Origin: Symbiodinium sp. CCMP2592 | Taxonomy: Eukaryota > Sar > Dinophyceae > Suessiales > Symbiodiniaceae | Reading direction: 5' to 3' | NCBI GenBank assembly: GCA_905221615.1 | Contig: CAJNDT010004890.1 | Span: 770,599-834,598, forward strand | DNA: 64,000 nt | Shown here: piece after piece, positions 11,437-61,423 of the stretch | How the letters are laid out: the number at the start of each line of letters is the position of its first letter | Numbering within the stretch: the first letter of the stretch is position 1 | Made by a program: the position numbers and the translations under genes | The notes under the pieces: generated by a model | The model's input: the letters and a program-made list of their open reading frames with translations, nothing else | What the model was told of the DNA's origin: nothing | Databases searched by the model: none

Positions 11437-11682
11437 AAGAGCAGAGGTGAAGGCCATGAGCACGCTGCTTCAACTACTCAAGACGGATTAGATGTTATAG
11501 CAGTAAATAACTCTTCGACGTTACTGTCTATAGTCGGGAAAGCAACTTTTTCGGATACTGGAGGAAGTACTGACTGATGCTGCAGTGCTCCTTCATGTTT
11601 GAGTGCTCAAGCTGAATCTTCGTTGCCTGTACTTTGCCGCACGTGTCGCATGGCAACAGGGCACCCCCAAACAATCAACCCT

Positions 11683-11815
11683 ACTTGGAGGGTCGGGGGA
11701 CTTAGTAAGTAGGTAGTAAGTAAACTTATAAGTACCCTAAAAGGGACCCTAATTGGGGTTATGGTACTTATAAGTCCTTAAAATAACCAGTTACTAAGTC
11801 CCCCGACCCTCCAAG
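11683..11815. repeat. Foldback family A, copy 4
   Basis: A full-length copy close to consensus, with both outer arms and the inner ACTTATAAGTACC stem. Confidence 0.9.
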
Positions 11816-22785: not shown

Positions 22786-22893
22786 CTGTGAAACTCTTCG
22801 ATGCAGCGCCCTCACAAACGCTGGTTCGAATCTCCTGCTGCTGGGACGGTTGGCCACATGACGTAAACAATCCAAAGCAGCTGAGATCTGCTA

Positions 22894-24231
22894 CTAATTC
22901 CGCAGCTGATCTTGCACAGCCTTACTGTCACCCCCGTCGGCAGCATCTCCCCAGGTAACGACAGATCCATCAGCGAGAATCGCCGCAAAAGCGCCACTGG
23001 AAGCTTGGATCTGCTGCACGTTCTTCAGCTGATCCTGTACATCAGAACTGTTACCACCCCTGTGACCAAGTCCCCAGGTGACAACAGATCCATCAGCAAG
23101 AATCGCGGCAAACGCCTTGTCAGAGGCTTTAATCTGCTGCACATTCTTCAGGTGTTCCTGAACAGAACGACTGTCACCTCCAGTGGCAGCATCGCCCCAG
23201 GTCACGACAGATCCATCAGCGAGAATGGCAGCAAAGGCAGAACTAGATGCTTGGACCTGCTGCACATTCTTCAGCTGATCCTGCACAGCACTACTGTCGC
23301 CACCGTGACCCCCATGCCCCCAGGTCACGACGGATTCATCCAGAAGAATGGCAGCAAACGCGGAACTAGAGGCTTCGATCTGCTGCACATGCTTCAACTG
23401 ATCCTGCACAGCACTACTGTCACCACCGTCGGCAGCATTTCCCCAGGTCACGACAGATCCATCAGCAAGAATAGCAGCAAAAGCGCTGCTAGAGGCTTCG
23501 ATCTGCTGCGCATCCTTCAGCTGATGCTGCACAGCACTACTTGCACCCCCGTCGGCAGCGTATCCCCAGGTGACGACAGATCCATCAGCGAGAATCGCCG
23601 CAAAAGCGCCACTGGAAGCTTGGATCTGCTTCACATTATTCAGCTGATCCTGCACAGCACGACTGTCGCCACCCTTGTGACCAAGTCCCCAGGTGACAAC
23701 AGACCCATCGGCAAGAATCGCCGCAAACGCATTGTCACAGGCTTTAATCTCCTGCACAGTCTTCAGCTGTTCCTGAACAGCACGACTGTTGCCACCATGA
23801 CCGCCACGCCCCCAGGTCACGACGGATCCATCACAAAGAACGGCAGCAAAGGCGGAACGAGAGGCTTCGATCTGCTGCACATGCTTCAACTGATCCTGCA
23901 CATCACCACTGTCACCCCCGTCGGCAGCATTTCCCCAAGTGACGACAGATCCATCGCAAAGAATGGCAGCAAAAGCAGAGTCAGCGGCCGACGCTTGAAC
24001 TCGGCTGATGTGCATGGTCAGCCAATCACCATTCCTCACCCCGGTATCCCTTATTCGAGCACATGGATCCAAAGCGCCTCCACACGAGTCCACCAATTGA
24101 ACAAGGCGCCCATCTCCAATTCCAAGTGCCGTGTGTGCGCGACGGCTCAATAACCTCACCTCCTCTTCCACGCCGGCTTCCGCGGAAGTTCTCTTGCCGC
24201 TGAGCAGCCCAACTTCAACAGTAATCGACAT
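22894..24231 (-). CDS. Ubiquitin-like domain plus RCC1-like repeat protein, copy 1
   Basis: Intact single-exon frame of 445 residues from an ATG to a TAG. Residues 1-75 look like a ubiquitin-type beta-grasp domain (starts MSITVEVGLLSGK, ends NGDWLTMHI). From about residue 86 there are nine tandem repeats of 41 residues with the core AFAAILADGSVVTWG, then a linker like DSRAVQDQLKNVQQIEAS. This is an RCC1/HERC-type beta-propeller repeat. Classical RCC1 has seven longer repeats, so nine short ones is a variant. Family members act as scaffolds, exchange-factor modules or ubiquitin-ligase parts; no catalytic HECT domain is present, so a binding role is inferred. The frame stops inside the ninth repeat, after DQLRN, so the array is not closed by a full unit. 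The next copy lies 3.8 kb away on the same strand. The lack of introns could mean a retrocopied origin. The AAGCCAGGGTTGC just before the ATG is shared with copy 2. Confidence 0.9.
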   Translation of the reverse strand: MSITVEVGLLSGKRTSAEAGVEEEVRLLSRRAHTALGIGDGRLVQLVDSCGGALDPCARIRDTGVRNGDWLTMHISRVQASAADSAFAAILCDGSVVTWGNAADGGDSGDVQDQLKHVQQIEASRSAFAAVLCDGSVVTWGRGGHGGNSRAVQEQLKTVQEIKACDNAFAAILADGSVVTWGLGHKGGDSRAVQDQLNNVKQIQASSGAFAAILADGSVVTWGYAADGGASSAVQHQLKDAQQIEASSSAFAAILADGSVVTWGNAADGGDSSAVQDQLKHVQQIEASSSAFAAILLDESVVTWGHGGHGGDSSAVQDQLKNVQQVQASSSAFAAILADGSVVTWGDAATGGDSRSVQEHLKNVQQIKASDKAFAAILADGSVVTWGLGHRGGNSSDVQDQLKNVQQIQASSGAFAAILADGSVVTWGDAADGGDSKAVQDQLRN

Positions 24232-28066: not shown

Positions 28067-29527
28067 TTACAAGTTCCTCAGCTGATCTTGCACAGCGCGA
28101 CTGTCACCCCCATCGGCAGCATCGCCCCAGGTGACAGCGGATCCATCAGCAAGAATGGCAGCAAAAGCACCGTCAGAGGCTTGGATCTGCTGTACATATC
28201 GCGCAGCACAGCCTTGACGATTTTTACGACCACCCTTGCCAGAATGTCCCCAGGTGACGACAGATCCATTAGCAAGAATGGCCGCAAAAGCAGAAGGAGA
28301 AGCTTGGATCTGCTGCACATCCTTCAGCTGACGCTGAAAAGGACGACTGCCCCCGTCAGCAGCATATCCCCAGGTAACTACAGATCCATCGGTAAGAACA
28401 GCAGCGAAAGCAGTACTAGAAGCTTGGATCTTTTGCACATTCTTCAGCTGATCCTGCACAGCACGACTGTCACCACCCCATGCAGCAGACCCCCAGGTCA
28501 CAACAGATCCATCAGCGAGAATCGCAGCAAAAGCGCTGCTGGAAGCCTGAATCTGCTGCACATTCGTCAGCTGACCCCGCACGACACGACTGTCACCGCC
28601 GTCGGCAACATCTCCCCAGGTGACGAGAGATCCACCAGCAACAATGGCGGCAAAAGCGCTGCTGGAAGCCTGAATCTGCTGCACATTCTTCAGCTGATGC
28701 TGCACAGCGCGACTGTCACCCCCGTCAGTAGCTTTTCCCCAGGTGACGACAGATCCATCGCCAAGAATGGCAGCAAAAGCAGTACTTGAAGCCTGCATGT
28801 GCCGCACATCCTTCAGCTGATGTTGCACAGCACTACTGTCACCCCCGGCGGAAGGGTTTCCCCAAGTGACGACAGATCCATCAGCAAGAATGGCAGCAAA
28901 AGCTTCGCTAGACGCTTGGATCTTTTGCACATTCTTCAGCTGATCCTGCACAGCACGACTGTCCCCACCCTTGTGACCAAGTCCCCAGGTGACGACAAAT
29001 CCATCAGCAAGCATGGCGGCAAAAGCGCTGCTGGAAGCCTGAATCTGCTGCACATTCTTCAGCTGATGCTGCACAGCACGACTGTCACCCCCGTCAGTAG
29101 CTTTTCCCCAGGTGACGACAGATCCATCGCCAAGAATGGCAGCAAAAGCGGAACTTGAAGCTTGGATCTGCTGCACATTCTTCAGCTGGTGCCGCACAGC
29201 ACTACTGTCACCCCCGGCGGCACGGTTTCCCGAGGTGACAACAGATCCATCACCAAGAATCACAGCAAAGGCAGAGTTCGTGGCACAGGATTGAATTCGG
29301 GTCAGGTGCATCGTCAGCAAATCACCATCCTGCACCCTGGCATCCTTTGTTCGCGCACGTGGATCCAGTACGCTTCCAGACGAGTCCACCAGCCGAGCCA
29401 GCTGCCCCGTTCCGATTCCCAGTGCAGCCTGTGCGCGAAGGCTCAATAATCTCACCTCCTCGTCCACGCCGGCTTCCACGGAAGTTCTCTTGCCACTGAG
29501 CAGCCCTATTTCAACAGTAATCGACAT
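28067..29527 (-). CDS. Ubiquitin-like domain plus RCC1-like repeat protein, copy 2
   Basis: Intact single-exon frame of 486 residues from an ATG to a TAA, paralogous to the copy at 22894-24231. The N-terminal ubiquitin-like domain (residues 1-75, MSITVEIGLLSGK to QDGDLLTMHL) aligns without gaps to copy 1. Ten 41-residue RCC1-like repeats follow, one more than copy 1. Two repeats are irregular: the eighth lacks a residue in its linker (GGSRPFQRQ), and the ninth has an unrelated linker (GRKNRQGCAARY) that looks like local offsetting indels. The frame ends after DQLRNL at the same point of the repeat unit as copy 1, and the TAA lies inside the end of a foldback arm (family G). A propeller-type binding role is inferred from the family. 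The tandem same-strand arrangement fits the usual dinoflagellate gene arrays. Confidence 0.9.
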   Translation of the reverse strand: MSITVEIGLLSGKRTSVEAGVDEEVRLLSLRAQAALGIGTGQLARLVDSSGSVLDPRARTKDARVQDGDLLTMHLTRIQSCATNSAFAVILGDGSVVTSGNRAAGGDSSAVRHQLKNVQQIQASSSAFAAILGDGSVVTWGKATDGGDSRAVQHQLKNVQQIQASSSAFAAMLADGFVVTWGLGHKGGDSRAVQDQLKNVQKIQASSEAFAAILADGSVVTWGNPSAGGDSSAVQHQLKDVRHMQASSTAFAAILGDGSVVTWGKATDGGDSRAVQHQLKNVQQIQASSSAFAAIVAGGSLVTWGDVADGGDSRVVRGQLTNVQQIQASSSAFAAILADGSVVTWGSAAWGGDSRAVQDQLKNVQKIQASSTAFAAVLTDGSVVTWGYAADGGSRPFQRQLKDVQQIQASPSAFAAILANGSVVTWGHSGKGGRKNRQGCAARYVQQIQASDGAFAAILADGSAVTWGDAADGGDSRAVQDQLRNL

Positions 29528-30480
29528 GCTGCAACCCTGGCTTCAGGGCTTGCAGCTCGTTCGGGGCAAACAGTTCTTCGGTGGCATACTCGATAATACC
29601 ATTTCCAAGAAATAAAACTTGAAAACCCACAGAACGTGCAAATCGGTAGGCGTGTATTGTTCAAGAGTAGGCTTCAAATGAGCGGAGGTACATTTTTTTG
29701 CGATAGCGTTCAATATCCGGACTTGAGTTGGGTAATCGGTAACTTCGCTACTCTGAACCAAAATGGCGAAGTTAGGGTTCCTGGGGTGTACTGCTTTCAG
29801 GGTTTAGGGTTGATTGATAGATCTACTTTGACCAGGGGGTCTCATGAACTACTATTGCCGTTTCAATCCGTCTCACATGCCCTTGAAACGACGAGGATGC
29901 GAGAAGTCTAGACACATGCACGACAGCAGAGTTAAGTGGTGTCAGTATCCAGCGCTTGGTTCGGTGGAAAGGCATACAGGCACCGATAGACGAGAGGTGC
30001 GGCTCAATGTACCCTTAATATTAACTCTCCAGAACGCCTACCCTGGGTTCTGCTTAAGGAAATCACAATAGGGATCCCGGATCTATAGTAAGTGAGATGG
30101 TTTCCTAATTATGGTAGTTTAGTTGAAGCAGGCTCCTAAACGCCCTGAACTCCTAAACCCCCCAAAACGCCTAAACTCCAAACAGCAAGCCCTTCAAACC
30201 CTGAAACCCCATGCCCCTAAATCCCAAAACCTCAAAACCTACACCCTCAACCACCAAAAACCATAGACCCTACACCCTAAACCCTACAAACCCTGAACCA
30301 AAGGACCTCCAGCCAAAACTGCAAACTGAAGGGAAAGCGCTTGTCTGCGCCGCCATGAAGCTGCGGAGGCGCCTGCAGCTTCCCAGGTCTTAGGCTTCAG
30401 GGTTCCTTTAAGGGATCTGTAGGGGTTTCTATAAGGGGTTCCTTTCGGGGTTCCTTTAAGGGATCTATAGGGGTTTCTAT
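29528..30480. other. 5' flank of RCC1-like copy 2 and CCCTAAA text
   Basis: About 50 bases resemble the copy 1 flank. The next 500 bases are unique with short frames only. CCCTAAA text occupies 30140-30300. Confidence 0.4.
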
Positions 30481-30615
30481 ACTTGGAGGGTCGGGGGACT
30501 TAGTAACTGGTTATTTTAGGGACTTATAAGTACCATAACCCCCAATTAGGGCCCCTTTTAGGGTACTTACAAGTCTACTTACTGCCTACTTACTCAGTCC
30601 CCCGACCCTCCAAGT
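30481..30615. repeat. Foldback family A, copy 6
   Basis: Full length and close to consensus, in the opposite orientation to copy 4 (AACTGGTTATTTTAGG is on the left). Confidence 0.9.
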
Positions 30616-30767
30616 AGGCTTTAGGGTTTAAGGGTCTTGGGCTTAGTTGTTCAGAGGTTAGGGTCTCGCTTTTCAGGGCTTGGGGTTCCCGTGCTGTAGC
30701 ACTTGATCTTTGCAGTTTAGGATTTGGGGTGTAAGGTTTCCGGCGAACGTTTCCCAAGATGAGCTTG

Positions 30768-51440: not shown

Positions 51441-52804
51441 TCATGCGGAGCGCCGCCTGACTCTTTCGTCATACAGCTGCAGCTGGTCGCCCTGCGCGGA
51501 CGGCAACGGCAGCTCGAGGGCCTCAATGTTGCGAACGCCCCCCTGCATGACGCACGACTCTCCATGCTCTGAGCCCCGCGCCGCGGAGTAAATGCCGTAG
51601 GGGCCGTAGGGCCCCAGACTCGGCGTGTCAGCCAGCGCCTTCTTGACCATGTCTCCCTCTCGACGAAGCACCTGAGCGCTGGCACAGGGGGAACCTCTAA
51701 GACCAGGTTAGGCTATTTTGGGACATATATCCTATTTGGCAAAAATAACCTATATAGGTTATTTATATAAATAGACTATAGGTTATTCTATAGGTTATTC
51801 TATAGGTTATTTTGTAGGTTATATCTGAAATAGACTATATCCTACTATTGAATAGAGCCTAGAAACTGGACCCCGGTGGTCCGGTTTCATAGAAACCGGA
51901 CTCAAACCGGACCACCGGAGTCCAGTTTTCATGAAACCGGACCGAAACCGGACCGAAACTGGACCGCCATTTTGGTAAAAATCATACAAAAATGGACTAT
52001 GAAACAAGAGCGAAATAGTCTATTTAAAATAGTATATTTCGAGGTAAAATAAACTATTTTGCCAAATAGGATATATGTCCCAAAATAGCCTAACCTGGTC
52101 TTAGAGGAAGGGACTGGCACGGAGCTGCGCCGAGGCTCGAGCGGTGCAAATCTGTTGGGGGCTCATGCCCGACCTTTCTGCCGTGGAAGTGCCCCGTGAC
52201 TACGCTGCTGGAGCCTGGAGCCCGCCTCCGCAAGCGGGCCATTGCTGCCGCATCCTCGGTCATCACGGCCGAGAGGACGACCAGGCGCCTCTCCTCGCCC
52301 GGCATGATCTTTGCTGAAGCCCAAATGCTGCTCTCAGCACAGCTCTTAGTGCAGCTCGGCGGGCAGGTGTCGTTATGCAGCTTGTCAGTCACACGCACCT
52401 CTTTTTTGCCCGCCGTCGCGTGCACTCCCCTGCACTCAGAGCCGCGCGCCCGGCCTGCATCAGCGCCGCCGCGCCCGCTTGACGCAACGGAAGAGGCCGC
52501 ACTGCCTCGCAGCCGCGGCCCTGCGGCAGGCGCCGGAGCCAGTCGCGCTCGGCGGGCAACGGCGGCTGCATGGTGTGCCTGCGGCAGACGGGGCATTTGG
52601 CCATGCCCGCAGCCACGCAACGCTGGAGGCACCGTGCGCAGAAGCCATGCCGGCAGTTCAGGATCTCCACGTACGACGGCGCAGCGGTCCGCCTCTCCTC
52701 GTATAGGCCAATGGTTCCAAGCACAGCGGGCATTCCTCCCGCAGGTTCGCCTTGCTCTTGGCCTCCCGCAGTTCCTGCTTGAGGTGAGCGAGGTCGTCCG
52801 CCAT
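51441..52804 (-). pseudogene. RING-finger protein gene, frameshifted, with introner-like intron
   Basis: From an ATG at 52804 the minus strand reads MADDLAHLKQELREAKSK, a helical coiled-coil-like start, then the first RING pair CPLC at about 52740. The rest of the RING (NCRHGFCARC, then KCPVCRR) is in another frame down to about 52600, so one base is missing near 52715; one extra G in the GG of TTGGCC would restore the frame. The C-x2-C, C-x-H-x2-C-x2-C, C-x2-C spacing fits a C3HC4 RING, usually a ubiquitin E3 module. A second frame change near 52480 leads into a coding-like stretch (KLHNDTCPPSCTKSC) ending at 52095. A 400-base GT-AG intron (52094-51695) then joins in frame to VLRREGDMVKKALADTP, which stops at 51441. 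Either the gene is decaying or the consensus has indel errors; the intact RCC1 genes nearby argue for decay. RING identity is firm, gene boundaries are not. Confidence 0.65.
51694..52107 (-). mobile_element. Introner-like element with perfect 51-bp terminal inverted repeats
   Basis: The first 51 bases (51694-51744) and the last 51 (52057-52107) are perfect inverted copies beginning CCTCTAAGACCAGG. Each arm contains both CCAG|GTTAGG (a donor) and its complement ending CTTAGAG (an acceptor), so the element can be spliced from either strand. On the minus strand, GT at 52094-52093 and AG at 51696-51695 remove 400 bases and keep the reading frame across the junction (phase 1, codon G|GT). The interior is AT-rich, with a second palindrome at 51883-51929 (CCGGTGGTCCGGTTT and its complement). 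It sits in the GC-rich RING locus and contrasts sharply in base composition. Introner elements with inverted repeats are known from dinoflagellates and Amoebophrya. No other copy is seen here. Confidence 0.8.
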
Positions 52805-52894
52805 GGCTGCACCGCATGCCAGATCTACTCTCGAGCCCAAGGTGCATCGGATGAGAAAGCTGCGGCCAAACAAGCTCCTGTGTCCAGCACGCTC

Positions 52895-53516
52895 CTACGC
52901 AGCAAGCTCCTCTGCTGCATCCTCGCTGACGTCCCTAAGGCGACTCAAGCGCTTTTTTTATGGCTCGCTCCGGGGCTTCATGCTGGTCTCGGCGCTTTGG
53001 CGAGCCAGTGAAAGCTGTGCCTGTTCAGTGCCAGCTCCAGGTGCTCGCTGCATGTGTTCGCAGTCTATGTCCATCTCTTCTTCTGATCCAGATGCACCCG
53101 ACCAGAATCCACACCGAGAAGAGGACACCAGCAGCTTCCAGGGTCCCTGCAAGGACACATGGGGCGCAGGGCGGAAACAGCGTGCACGATGGGCGCCTTG
53201 GCCAACTGAGGCTGGAAGGCCTCTTGCCATCTCTTGGCTTGCCTGCGAAGAAAGTCCCTCCGGTCGTCCGTGCGCGACCTCGAGCCTGCCGGGCGACAGC
53301 GCATGAGTGCATGCCGCAATGAGGCCTGCACGCAGGGTCGCAGCGGGGATCCGTCAGTGTCCAAGTCAACCGCTGCTTATCGCCACAGCCAAAGCTGCGG
53401 TAGGCCACCAGCCGTGCGGCCGTGGCAGCTTCTGGTAAGCCTCCCGGCAAGGCGAGGTCCAAGGTCTTCTTCTCCCAGTCTGCCACGGCAGGCAGCCGCA
53501 GCAACAGCTGCATCAT
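52895..53516 (-). pseudogene. Unrecognised coding-like locus, frameshifted, upstream of RING gene
   Basis: An ATGATG at 53516 opens MMQLLLRLPAVADWEKK and then LDLALPGGLPEAATAARL, well-formed protein text in GC-rich DNA. Coding-like text continues in a second frame (RRQAKRWQEAFQPQLAKAP, about 53330-53170), then a third (GSEEEMDIDCEHMQRAP, down to 52958). After a run of seven A bases near 52950 it resumes with KKRLSRLRDVSEDAAEELAA and stops near 52895. Three frame changes in 0.6 kb mean it cannot be translated as it stands. I recognise no family. The 90-base gap to the RING ATG suggests a separate gene, or a broken 5' part of the same one. The plus-strand open frame over the same DNA is probably a shadow. 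Confidence 0.4.
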
Positions 53517-53629: not shown

Positions 53630-53764
53630 CTTGAAGGGTCGGGGGACTTAGTAAGTATAGGTAGTAAGTAGACTTATAAGTACCCTAAAAGGGATCCTAA
53701 TTGGGGTGATGGTACTTATAAGTCCCGAAAATAACCAGTTACTAAGTCCCCCGACCCTCCAAGT
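53630..53764. repeat. Foldback family A, copy 10
   Basis: Full length; outer arm GCTTGAAGGGTCGGGGGACT and its near complement. It lies just outside the GC-rich island. Confidence 0.9.
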
Positions 53765-58252: not shown

Positions 58253-58930
58253 TAACCTAGGAAAAACAGGGTGCCTTTTTGCTTTAAAGGGGCTCTAGGT
58301 CCTAGTTGAGGGTTTAGGGCTCAGGGCTCGGGGTAGCAAGGTTCCTGCATGGCCGGTGGGCATGGGGCATGGGATATAGTCATAAGGTCCGGGGGTTGGA
58401 GAGTCTACGATCGCAAAAGGTCCTAAGTACCTGTGCGGGGATACTTGCCAAAATCATATTCGTAAGTCTTGTTCCAAAAAACCCTACATTCCGAGATCAT
58501 ACTGTTTGAGTATTGAGGACCCTGTCTTTGGGAATATAGAGCCTCCAATGCAGGGCAAGACTCGCGTATTTGCGTTTAGGGGTTTAGGTGCTTTTGTTTG
58601 TTATATAAACTGGCTTAGGGTTATACTGTTAGCCTGACCACCCCTAAAACCCTACACCACCCGGTTATACTGCTAACCCGGCCACCCGTAAAACCCTACA
58701 CCAGGCATCCCTGCAGAACCCTCAAACTCTAAACCCTGAACCCTAAAATTTAAAACCCTGAGCCCCAAACCCTGAACCGTCGTAGGAAACCCGAAGGATA
58801 TAGTTTGGGTTTGAGCCCTTGGGGAGTTTGCGGGCAGGGTGTAGGGTTGGGATTCGGGTTAGGGTTTAGGGTTTAGGGTTGCGGGTGTAGAGATGGGTCT
58901 AGGTTTAGGACGGTCTAGGGTTTAGGTTTT
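58253..58930. other. TTTAGGG/CCCTAAA text and a 40-bp duplication
   Basis: GGTTATACTG-TAACC/GCC-CACC-CTAAAACCCTACACCA occurs twice at 58615-58702. TTTAGGG text at 58850-58925. Confidence 0.5.
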
Positions 58931-59065
58931 ACTTGGAGGGTCGGGGGACTTAGTAACTAGTTATTTTCGGGACTTATGAGTACCATAACCCCAATTAGGG
59001 TCCCTTTTGGGGTACTTATAAGTCTACTTACTACCTACTTACTAAGTCCCCCGACCCTCCAAGTA
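58931..59065. repeat. Foldback family A, copy 11
   Basis: Full length and close to consensus. Confidence 0.9.
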
Positions 59066-59329
59066 GGGTGTAGGTTTAGGAAGGCTTGGGGCTTTGGCGA
59101 GTTGAACCATAAACCCCACGCCGGCTTGGGCGGGTAAGCCTGAAGCAAGACAACCCAAAGCCGCATTACACAAGACGATCACATGCTTCGGTTGCAGCGA
59201 GCAGGCCTTGTCCTCAATATGTGGGAAGTTCCGAACTGAAGCAGGGACGCCCCATATAGAACCTTCATTCTTATGGCATAAGGATGTATAATAAGGATTC
59301 CCAATGAAGGTTTCACCCTCCTACTACGC

Positions 59330-60272: not shown

Positions 60273-60306
60273 CGCTGGGTACAGGGCTTGCGGATTAGGG
60301 CTTGTT

Positions 60307-60441
60307 ACTTGGAGTGTCGGGGGACTTAGAAACTGGTTGTTTTAGGGACTTATAAGTACCATAACCCCAATGAGGGTCCCTTCTAGGGCACTTATAAATC
60401 TACCTACTACCTACTTACTAAGTCCCCCGACCCTCCAAGTA
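60307..60441. repeat. Foldback family A, copy 12
   Basis: Full length; left arm ACTTGGAGTGTCGGGGGACT. Confidence 0.9.
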
Positions 60442-61423
60442 AGGTTTCGGGGTTGAGGATAAGCTCGGCTAGACCTTGGGGTTTACGAGGTGGGGCTTAT
60501 AAGGTTCGAAATAGGGTTTAGGGCTCTTGTTGAGGGACTTGGCTTAATGTTTCCTCATTCAGGAAACCCTGATTATTTCTTTAGATCCCTATGATGTTAG
60601 CTTGAACTACCTTCCTGCACAAGAACCCAGCTTAGGATTCCTACGGCTTGTGGCGTTCCGTGGGGTTTAGGCTTTGCTAGGTCTTCTAGGGTTTCCAGCA
60701 TGTCTCGGGTTGTATATCCTAAGGTTTTCATGGTTTGTACGGTTTAAAGGGGGAAGGGTAGGACGTAGGACTTCTACCCAGAGACTCCAAAACCGCTTAG
60801 TTGAGGAATATACCTGAAACTATTAACAGGAACCCTCAGATGATCTAAGAATCTACGGTACATCACGGTACATGCCTTGATTTAATTGAAGGATGTTGGA
60901 GTCTTACGGTACTGTGCGCTGTTTACCTCGCCGAACACGATGCAGCAAACAAGTACACTCAAATACACAAACAGAAGTGCATCGCCGTAGTATCCGTTCC
61001 TTTGCTTTCCAGAACTACCTCTAGCAATAGGAATCTAAACGCGAGCAACACAGCGCGAAAAAGAACCCTTAAGAAGCTCTTATACACTCACACAAAACCT
61101 TTCCTAAATTCCAAGAGCCCTCAAGAAGCCCTTATACACTTACACGAAACCGTTCCTAAATTCCAAGTTTTAAACAAACTTTGCAGTTCCTAAATTCCAA
61201 GTCTTACTTAAAGAAGGTTGAGGGTCTAGGGTTTAGGGTTAAGCTTGGCAAATCTCGTTTCGCAGCCGAGGTACTCTCCGATGAGACCAAGGCTAAAACT
61301 TCCTGCCTGAGAGCTTTTCAACTTCGATTTTTTCGATTTTTGAAGGAGGCTTCGGGCTCACAGCTTAGGGCCCTTGGGGGGGGGGTGGGGTGGGTTAGAG
61401 TTTAGGGGTTGGGGAGTTTAGGG
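60442..61423. other. Degenerate family E half, a 55-bp duplication, no gene
   Basis: CAGAGACTCCAAAACCGCTT at 60780 is a family E left arm. 61070-61200 repeats CTTATACACT-ACAC and CCTAAATTCCAAG two to three times. A G-rich run is at 61374-61395. Confidence 0.5.

Follow-up and report, generated by a model that had tools for sequence, protein, structure and literature searches.

Does a short AT-rich element that interrupts a GC-rich locus of Symbiodinium sp. CCMP2592 create introns as it moves, or is it a transposon whose termini resemble splice sites? Introners have been proposed as drivers of intron creation in dinoflagellates, as stated in the available text of a review (PMC11453091), and the element in the stretch of DNA analysed here (the window, 64,000 nucleotides) had been predicted to be a mobile intron source, with both splice sites carried on its inverted arms. 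Our analysis indicates that it is very probably a short, non-autonomous (MITE-like) DNA transposon that a larger relative gave rise to through two internal deletions, and that its mobility depends in trans on a transposase-like protein encoded by 13.8-kb elements with identical ends.

Structure and setting of the element

The element spans positions 51694-52107 (414 bp), with a GC content of 0.37 against 0.66 in the 500 + 500 bp that flank it. Its two 51-nt arms are 100% complementary and 312 nt apart, the longest listed frame wholly within it has 66 codons, and tRNA and Rfam scans of the 64-kb window gave no matches. The perfect arms, the second palindrome, the AT-rich composition within a GC-rich locus and the splice-like motifs in each arm on both strands were all as the original prediction had described them. 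The features are as follows, the splice-like sites being read from the sequence, with a slash at each putative junction:

51692..51693, no strand: left copy (AA) of the target-site duplication, a 2-bp repeat flanking the element
51694..51744, plus: left terminal inverted repeat (TIR), 51 bp, 100% complementary to 52057-52107; outer 29 bp common to 68 genome ends
51697..51701, minus: CTTAG/AGG acceptor-like site, AG at 51698-51697; +18 nt, open
51705..51712, plus: AG/GTTAGG donor-like site, whose GGTTAGG core a second family retains
51711-51707, minus: CTAAC branch-like motif, the reverse complement of the donor-like site
51776..51822, no strand: 12-bp tandem repeat, 3.9 copies
51863..51991, no strand: central block, a single piece in ~3.5-kb relatives and bordered by deletion joints that overlap by 6 nt and 4 nt
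51863-51943: second palindrome, within the central block
52057..52107, minus: right terminal inverted repeat, 51 bp, complementary to the left arm
52093..52096, minus: AG/GT donor-like site, GT at 52094-52093
52100..52104, plus: CTTAG/AGG acceptor-like site
52108..52109, no strand: right copy (AA) of the target-site duplication, the 2-bp flank repeat
52392..52934, minus: decayed RING-finger gene fragment adjoining the insertion (Pfam PF00097, E 5.7e-6)

Copies, target-site duplications and empty sites

We searched the 1.098-Gb assembly (5383 contigs) for further copies. Among the 40 of 76 candidates that were scored, at least eight places match 315 or more of the element's 414 nt: at least six of these run end to end (the window copy at 100%, four at 98-99% and one at 89%), and at least two are truncated; because 40 of 76 candidates were scored, these counts are lower bounds. 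The arm search proposed in the original prediction proved productive: a pattern built on the outermost 29 bp, allowing up to three mismatches, found 68 TIR ends genome-wide and 0 in the control, so the inverted repeat lies far beyond chance (L001-L008, which duplicate other loci, were left out of our TIR tabulation). The shortest form, a 92-bp family member (L052:1044-1135), consists of nearly just two arms back to back, with TA/TA flanks. Judging by end positions alone, one copy of the 414-bp type (C814:93281-104371) is seemingly split by ~10.7 kb between positions 64 and 65.

A 2-bp target duplication accompanies all 14 insertions for which both ends are available, and a 3-bp match occurs in one of the 14. 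This set comprises three pairs assembled from separate left and right loci, and excludes single-ended loci together with L013, L015, L016 and L022, in which an end is missing or eroded. A query made of three joined sites, each with one copy of the duplication removed, gave 1004 first-look candidates, of which 40 were scored; all 40 span the joined L011 site, four at 100% and 36 at 99%, even though the joined flanks of L010 were in the same query. The L011 matches are empty sites in a repeated host. That host, which is repeated at least 40 times, carries an RNA 2'-phosphotransferase (Tpt1/KptA) domain that L010 has as well. At L011:1814-6399 the insertion lies between two open frames, one of 401 and one of 989 codons, which become 1390 across the empty site. 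For the window copy, the joined flanks matched the window alone in the genome search, and the similarity of a RING paralog on C4013 (96% over 367 bp) stops before the insertion point. The window element is mobile and has recently moved, in keeping with the earlier view of a fresh insertion into a decaying locus, in which the RING gene fragment has indeed decayed.

Origin by internal deletion

Positions 1-175, 170-298 and 295-414 of the window element occur in the same order, ~1.5 kb apart, in ~3.5-kb relatives. The three blocks are complete in L017, L018 and L019, and L016 and L022 have one eroded end. In L018 the deletion joints are the overlaps AAACTG and AAAA; the two internal deletions were also considered as introns and rejected, the joints being short overlaps and not GT..AG. 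ORFs were listed in the ~3.5-kb relatives L018 and L019, and none made a convincing gene.

The same termini bound a 13,804-bp element at C5:196824-210627 (L024, L029, L023), which resembles the window-type and ~3.5-kb members over the left ~280 bp at 88-90% and the right ~330 bp at 93-95%. These termini are common to 92-bp, ~3.5-kb and 13.8-kb members, and the long ones encode a transposase-like protein, which makes the window element a deletion derivative of the non-autonomous kind. The parent in which the deletions occurred may be something other than the 13.8-kb family.

Transposase-like proteins of the long elements

Long plus-strand ORFs run along the 13,804-bp element, the last of which encodes P0001 (362 aa). 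Among the 113 of 769 candidates scored, P0001 is intact and 100% identical in 17 copies and carries a stop in one more, and relatives at 50% to 31% identity are numerous. The 18 copies have 15 different right flanks, three sharing one flank and two another; because of these identical flanks, some long copies may be duplicated contigs. The additional ORFs of the 13.8-kb element encode Lys/Ala-rich proteins and an RRM-like sequence (E 0.023, 15 bits, below the 20.7-bit cutoff).

The motifs HGDGTP, GDxEY, CxLC, HxDYMH and KGED are common to P0002/P0001 and a 50%-identical family, here family B. The TIR of family B is CCTCTTAGATTCGGTTAGG, which retains GGTTAGG and the AG ahead of AGG; its ends form ten facing pairs, eight of them 14.6-14.9 kb apart and two at 22 and 57 kb. 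A family at 34% identity has the end ...CTCAGGG and lacks the GGTTAGG core; the other distant relatives gave no clear common end within the 0.8 kb examined. Searches of Pfam with the transposase-like ORFs (E up to 10) and of PDB sequences with P0001 (E up to 1) gave no match. Even without splicing, the elements apparently represent an undescribed, recently active transposon lineage, undescribed in that no Pfam model matches; the literature searched, which excluded most subscription papers, yielded no description of the window element.

According to the available text of PMC12730594, the CMCT clade is marked by C(2)C and H(3-4)H between the second D and the last E, by duplications of 2-5 bp and, 'in most cases', by CA..TG termini. 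Read by eye, both of our families show this order as far as H(4)H, with D, D and C(2)C ahead of it, the last catalytic E and the fold being tentative, and the 2-bp duplication of the present family (family A) falls within the CMCT range. Termini are CC..GG in both families, not CA..TG, which counts against the assignment, although the latter, holding 'in most cases', is no strict requirement. On the protein motifs and the duplication length, this is likely a CMCT-like lineage (CACTA/EnSpm-Mirage-Chapaev-Transib, with Plavaka). We infer that P0001-type proteins are transposases that mobilise the short copies by a cut-and-paste mode, with the 13.8-kb elements as the putative autonomous partner. 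The transposase-like protein would recognise the 51-bp TIRs, and the element would be cut out and reinserted with a 2-bp target duplication.

Host sites and reading frames

The explanation that the element inserts in the ordinary way into GC-rich, often coding-like or multicopy DNA, and that its splice-like motifs are transposase-binding sequence, is probable. When 1 kb on each side was taken, nine of 14 sites proved to be spanned by an ORF of 200 aa or more, compared with 8.6% of 3000 random window positions (binomial P 3e-7), but 79% of the 95 window positions with GC of at least 0.54 reach 200 aa as well. Much of the excess follows GC, and because GC was not matched, the window-wide background overstates any preference for ORFs. 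Long and short members also behave alike, the 13.8-kb copies C5 and C461 sitting inside ORFs too, and recognition by a transposase would account equally well for the conservation of the motifs between families. Against this explanation, it leaves the coincidence of donor, branch and acceptor and a multiple-of-three scar unexplained, and the ORF background comes from one 64-kb window, supplemented by shuffled flanks.

Spanning ORFs at seven of the 14 sites (L009, L010, L011, L012, L018, C5, C461) exceed 300 dinucleotide shuffles of their own flanks (≤0.3%), among them four of the six end-to-end copies of the 414-bp type (L009-L012), whose ORFs were reached by 0 of 300 shuffles. The original prediction had set copies confined to intergenic DNA against an intron role, and this was not what we observed, these seven sites lying in long ORFs. 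The window site is borderline: its shuffled flanks average a spanning ORF of 196 codons, and the observed 340 is reached in 5% of 300; L014 stands at 11%, and five other sites are also not clear.

Where hosts could be labelled, they are mostly other mobile elements, and no intact cellular gene was identifiable as host among the copies examined. L010 and L011 lie in KptA-domain ORFs, L009 and L012 in zinc-knuckle ORFs (weak, below cutoff), L027 in a copia-type reverse transcriptase and L035 in a Helitron-like N host. The C5 host is 57% identical to that of L009, and the L036 host 98% identical to that of L011. By eye alone, L014 lies in a LINE-type reverse transcriptase and L038 in a copia integrase, neither with a Pfam match.

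Splice-like ends and the predicted scar

The arm reads CCTCTAAGACCAG/GTTAGG and its complement CCTAACCTGGTCTTAG/AGG, such that each arm holds AG/GTTAGG on one strand and, opposite it, CTAAC-N5-CTTAG, in which 11 nt separate the branch-like A of CTAAC from where the AG ends. The original prediction had removed GT(52094) to AG(51695) and joined a 240-codon frame to a 76-codon one. The resulting frame is open (243 + 84 codons), as GC-rich DNA tends to have more than one frame free of stops, but this cut leaves 13 + 1 TIR nt and 2 nt of target duplication, and the +16 nt shift the frame relative to the uninterrupted site. Nor is the 240-codon frame that of the RING gene: it had no Pfam match at E 0.01, and RING, the sole domain recognised in the vicinity, lies in another minus-strand frame (52392-52934). 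A cut at the CTTAG/AGG acceptor leaves 13 + 3 TIR nt and the 2-nt duplication, 18 nt in total, with which the host frame at the window site is kept and is open for 339 codons.

These ends invite a second explanation, that the element is an introner whose TIRs form a two-way splice cassette, CCAG/GTTAGG ... CTAAC-N5-CTTAG/AGG, leaving 16 TIR and 2 TSD nt as six codons. We regard this as unlikely. In its favour, 0.05% of shuffled TIRs contain both the donor-like and the branch/acceptor-like motif, with motifs chosen post hoc; the family with a 50%-identical transposase-like ORF retains the GGTTAGG core and the AG preceding AGG; and the +18 nt keep the host frame. Four of the six 414-type copies lie in ORFs beyond all 300 shuffles, and the available text of PMC9860276 describes Symbiodinium introners with TIRs and Aureococcus introners adding 12 nt.

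The evidence from scars and phases leans the other way. The predicted spliced scar CCTCTAAGAYCMGAGG, the one form searched (others were judged too short), had two genome matches versus two in the control, despite the abundance of at least one host family; the two matches, considered as spliced retrocopies, were rejected as chance, being at control level and flanked by no 2-bp repeat. The 18-nt scar carries TAA in one of three phases, when two host nucleotides precede the element, and, read by hand, three of 13 phase-readable host ORFs are in this stop phase (L014, C5, L038). The fraction is one of six among end-to-end 414-type copies and five of 16 after adding L016, L021 and L034, so that the stop phase is not clearly avoided against a one-in-three expectation. 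L040 and L041, which share the L035 flank, were counted once; the 13 exclude L016 and L021, whose ORFs are short or ambiguous, the single site L034/L037 with its 213-aa ORF, and L045, whose ORF consists of simple repeats. A transcript of the element is predicted to fold into a long perfect stem containing both sites (-201.5 kcal/mol, compared with a shuffle mean of -98), which would bury them. The short copies are also few, the long copies sit in ORFs too, the identifiable hosts are mostly mobile elements, and the window and L014 ORFs are not clear of their shuffles. What stands of the mobile intron source is its mobility, with the copies and 2-bp duplications in support; splicing of the element from transcripts, which its end motifs would permit, seems improbable. 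A bidirectional splice cassette throughout the TIR lineage, with a GGTTAGG donor whose complement CCTAACC would supply the branch point ahead of CTTAG/AGG, appears slightly more doubtful. If it were real, any member between 92 bp and 14 kb long could add six codons to an mRNA in either orientation, and full-length elements, like MITEs, would act as introns.

A chance or assembly artefact, to which the single locus of the window copy and the identical flanks of some possibly duplicated long copies might point, is refuted by the spread of copies over many contigs and flanks, by their TSDs and by the empty sites.

Comparison with known systems

As a short non-autonomous transposon, the window element resembles MITEs and other internal-deletion derivatives: it is short, bounded by TIRs, free of any gene-sized frame and present in several near-identical copies, with short-overlap joints. 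Unlike MITEs, the family has few copies, and its 92-bp member is almost two TIRs alone. With the CMCT clade, as described in the available text of PMC12730594, it shares TIRs, a 2-bp duplication as in PlavakaA and, by eye, the order D/D/C(2)C/H(4)H, but it differs in its CC..GG termini, the lack of a Pfam match and its additional ORFs, including a weak RRM.

Introners with TIRs, described for Symbiodinium microadriaticum and Aureococcus in the available text of PMC9860276 and for Amoebophrya in that of PMC7789003, are similar in their TIRs, AT-richness, insertion inside ORFs, splice-like ends and hairpin potential. The present family differs from them in having both splice-like sites inside the TIRs, in that its splicing is at most predicted and in having hosts that are mostly mobile elements, with no identified intact cellular gene. 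Its duplication is 2 bp, whereas that of the S. microadriaticum introners is 4 bp in the available text of PMC9860276.

The family forms a chain from 13.8 kb, with intact, identical transposase-like genes, through 3.5 kb and 414 bp to 92 bp, with empty sites in a repeated host, and it could allow target choice and any splicing of fresh insertions to be studied directly.

Other repeats in the window and assembly

Tandem arrays with a 123-bp period and ~79% mutual identity occupy 22885-23976 and 28074-29269 of the window; read by eye, they encode RCC1-like repeats. An interspersed repeat family of ~135 bp, 88-96% identical and in both orientations, occurs at 11678-11815, 30480-30635, 53630-53764, 58930-59069, 60306-60446 and other positions. 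Degenerate TTTAGGG repeats, found in the tandem-repeat scan, are in keeping with a dinoflagellate genome, as is the spliced-leader core, which had 429 exact matches in the assembly and 0 in the control.
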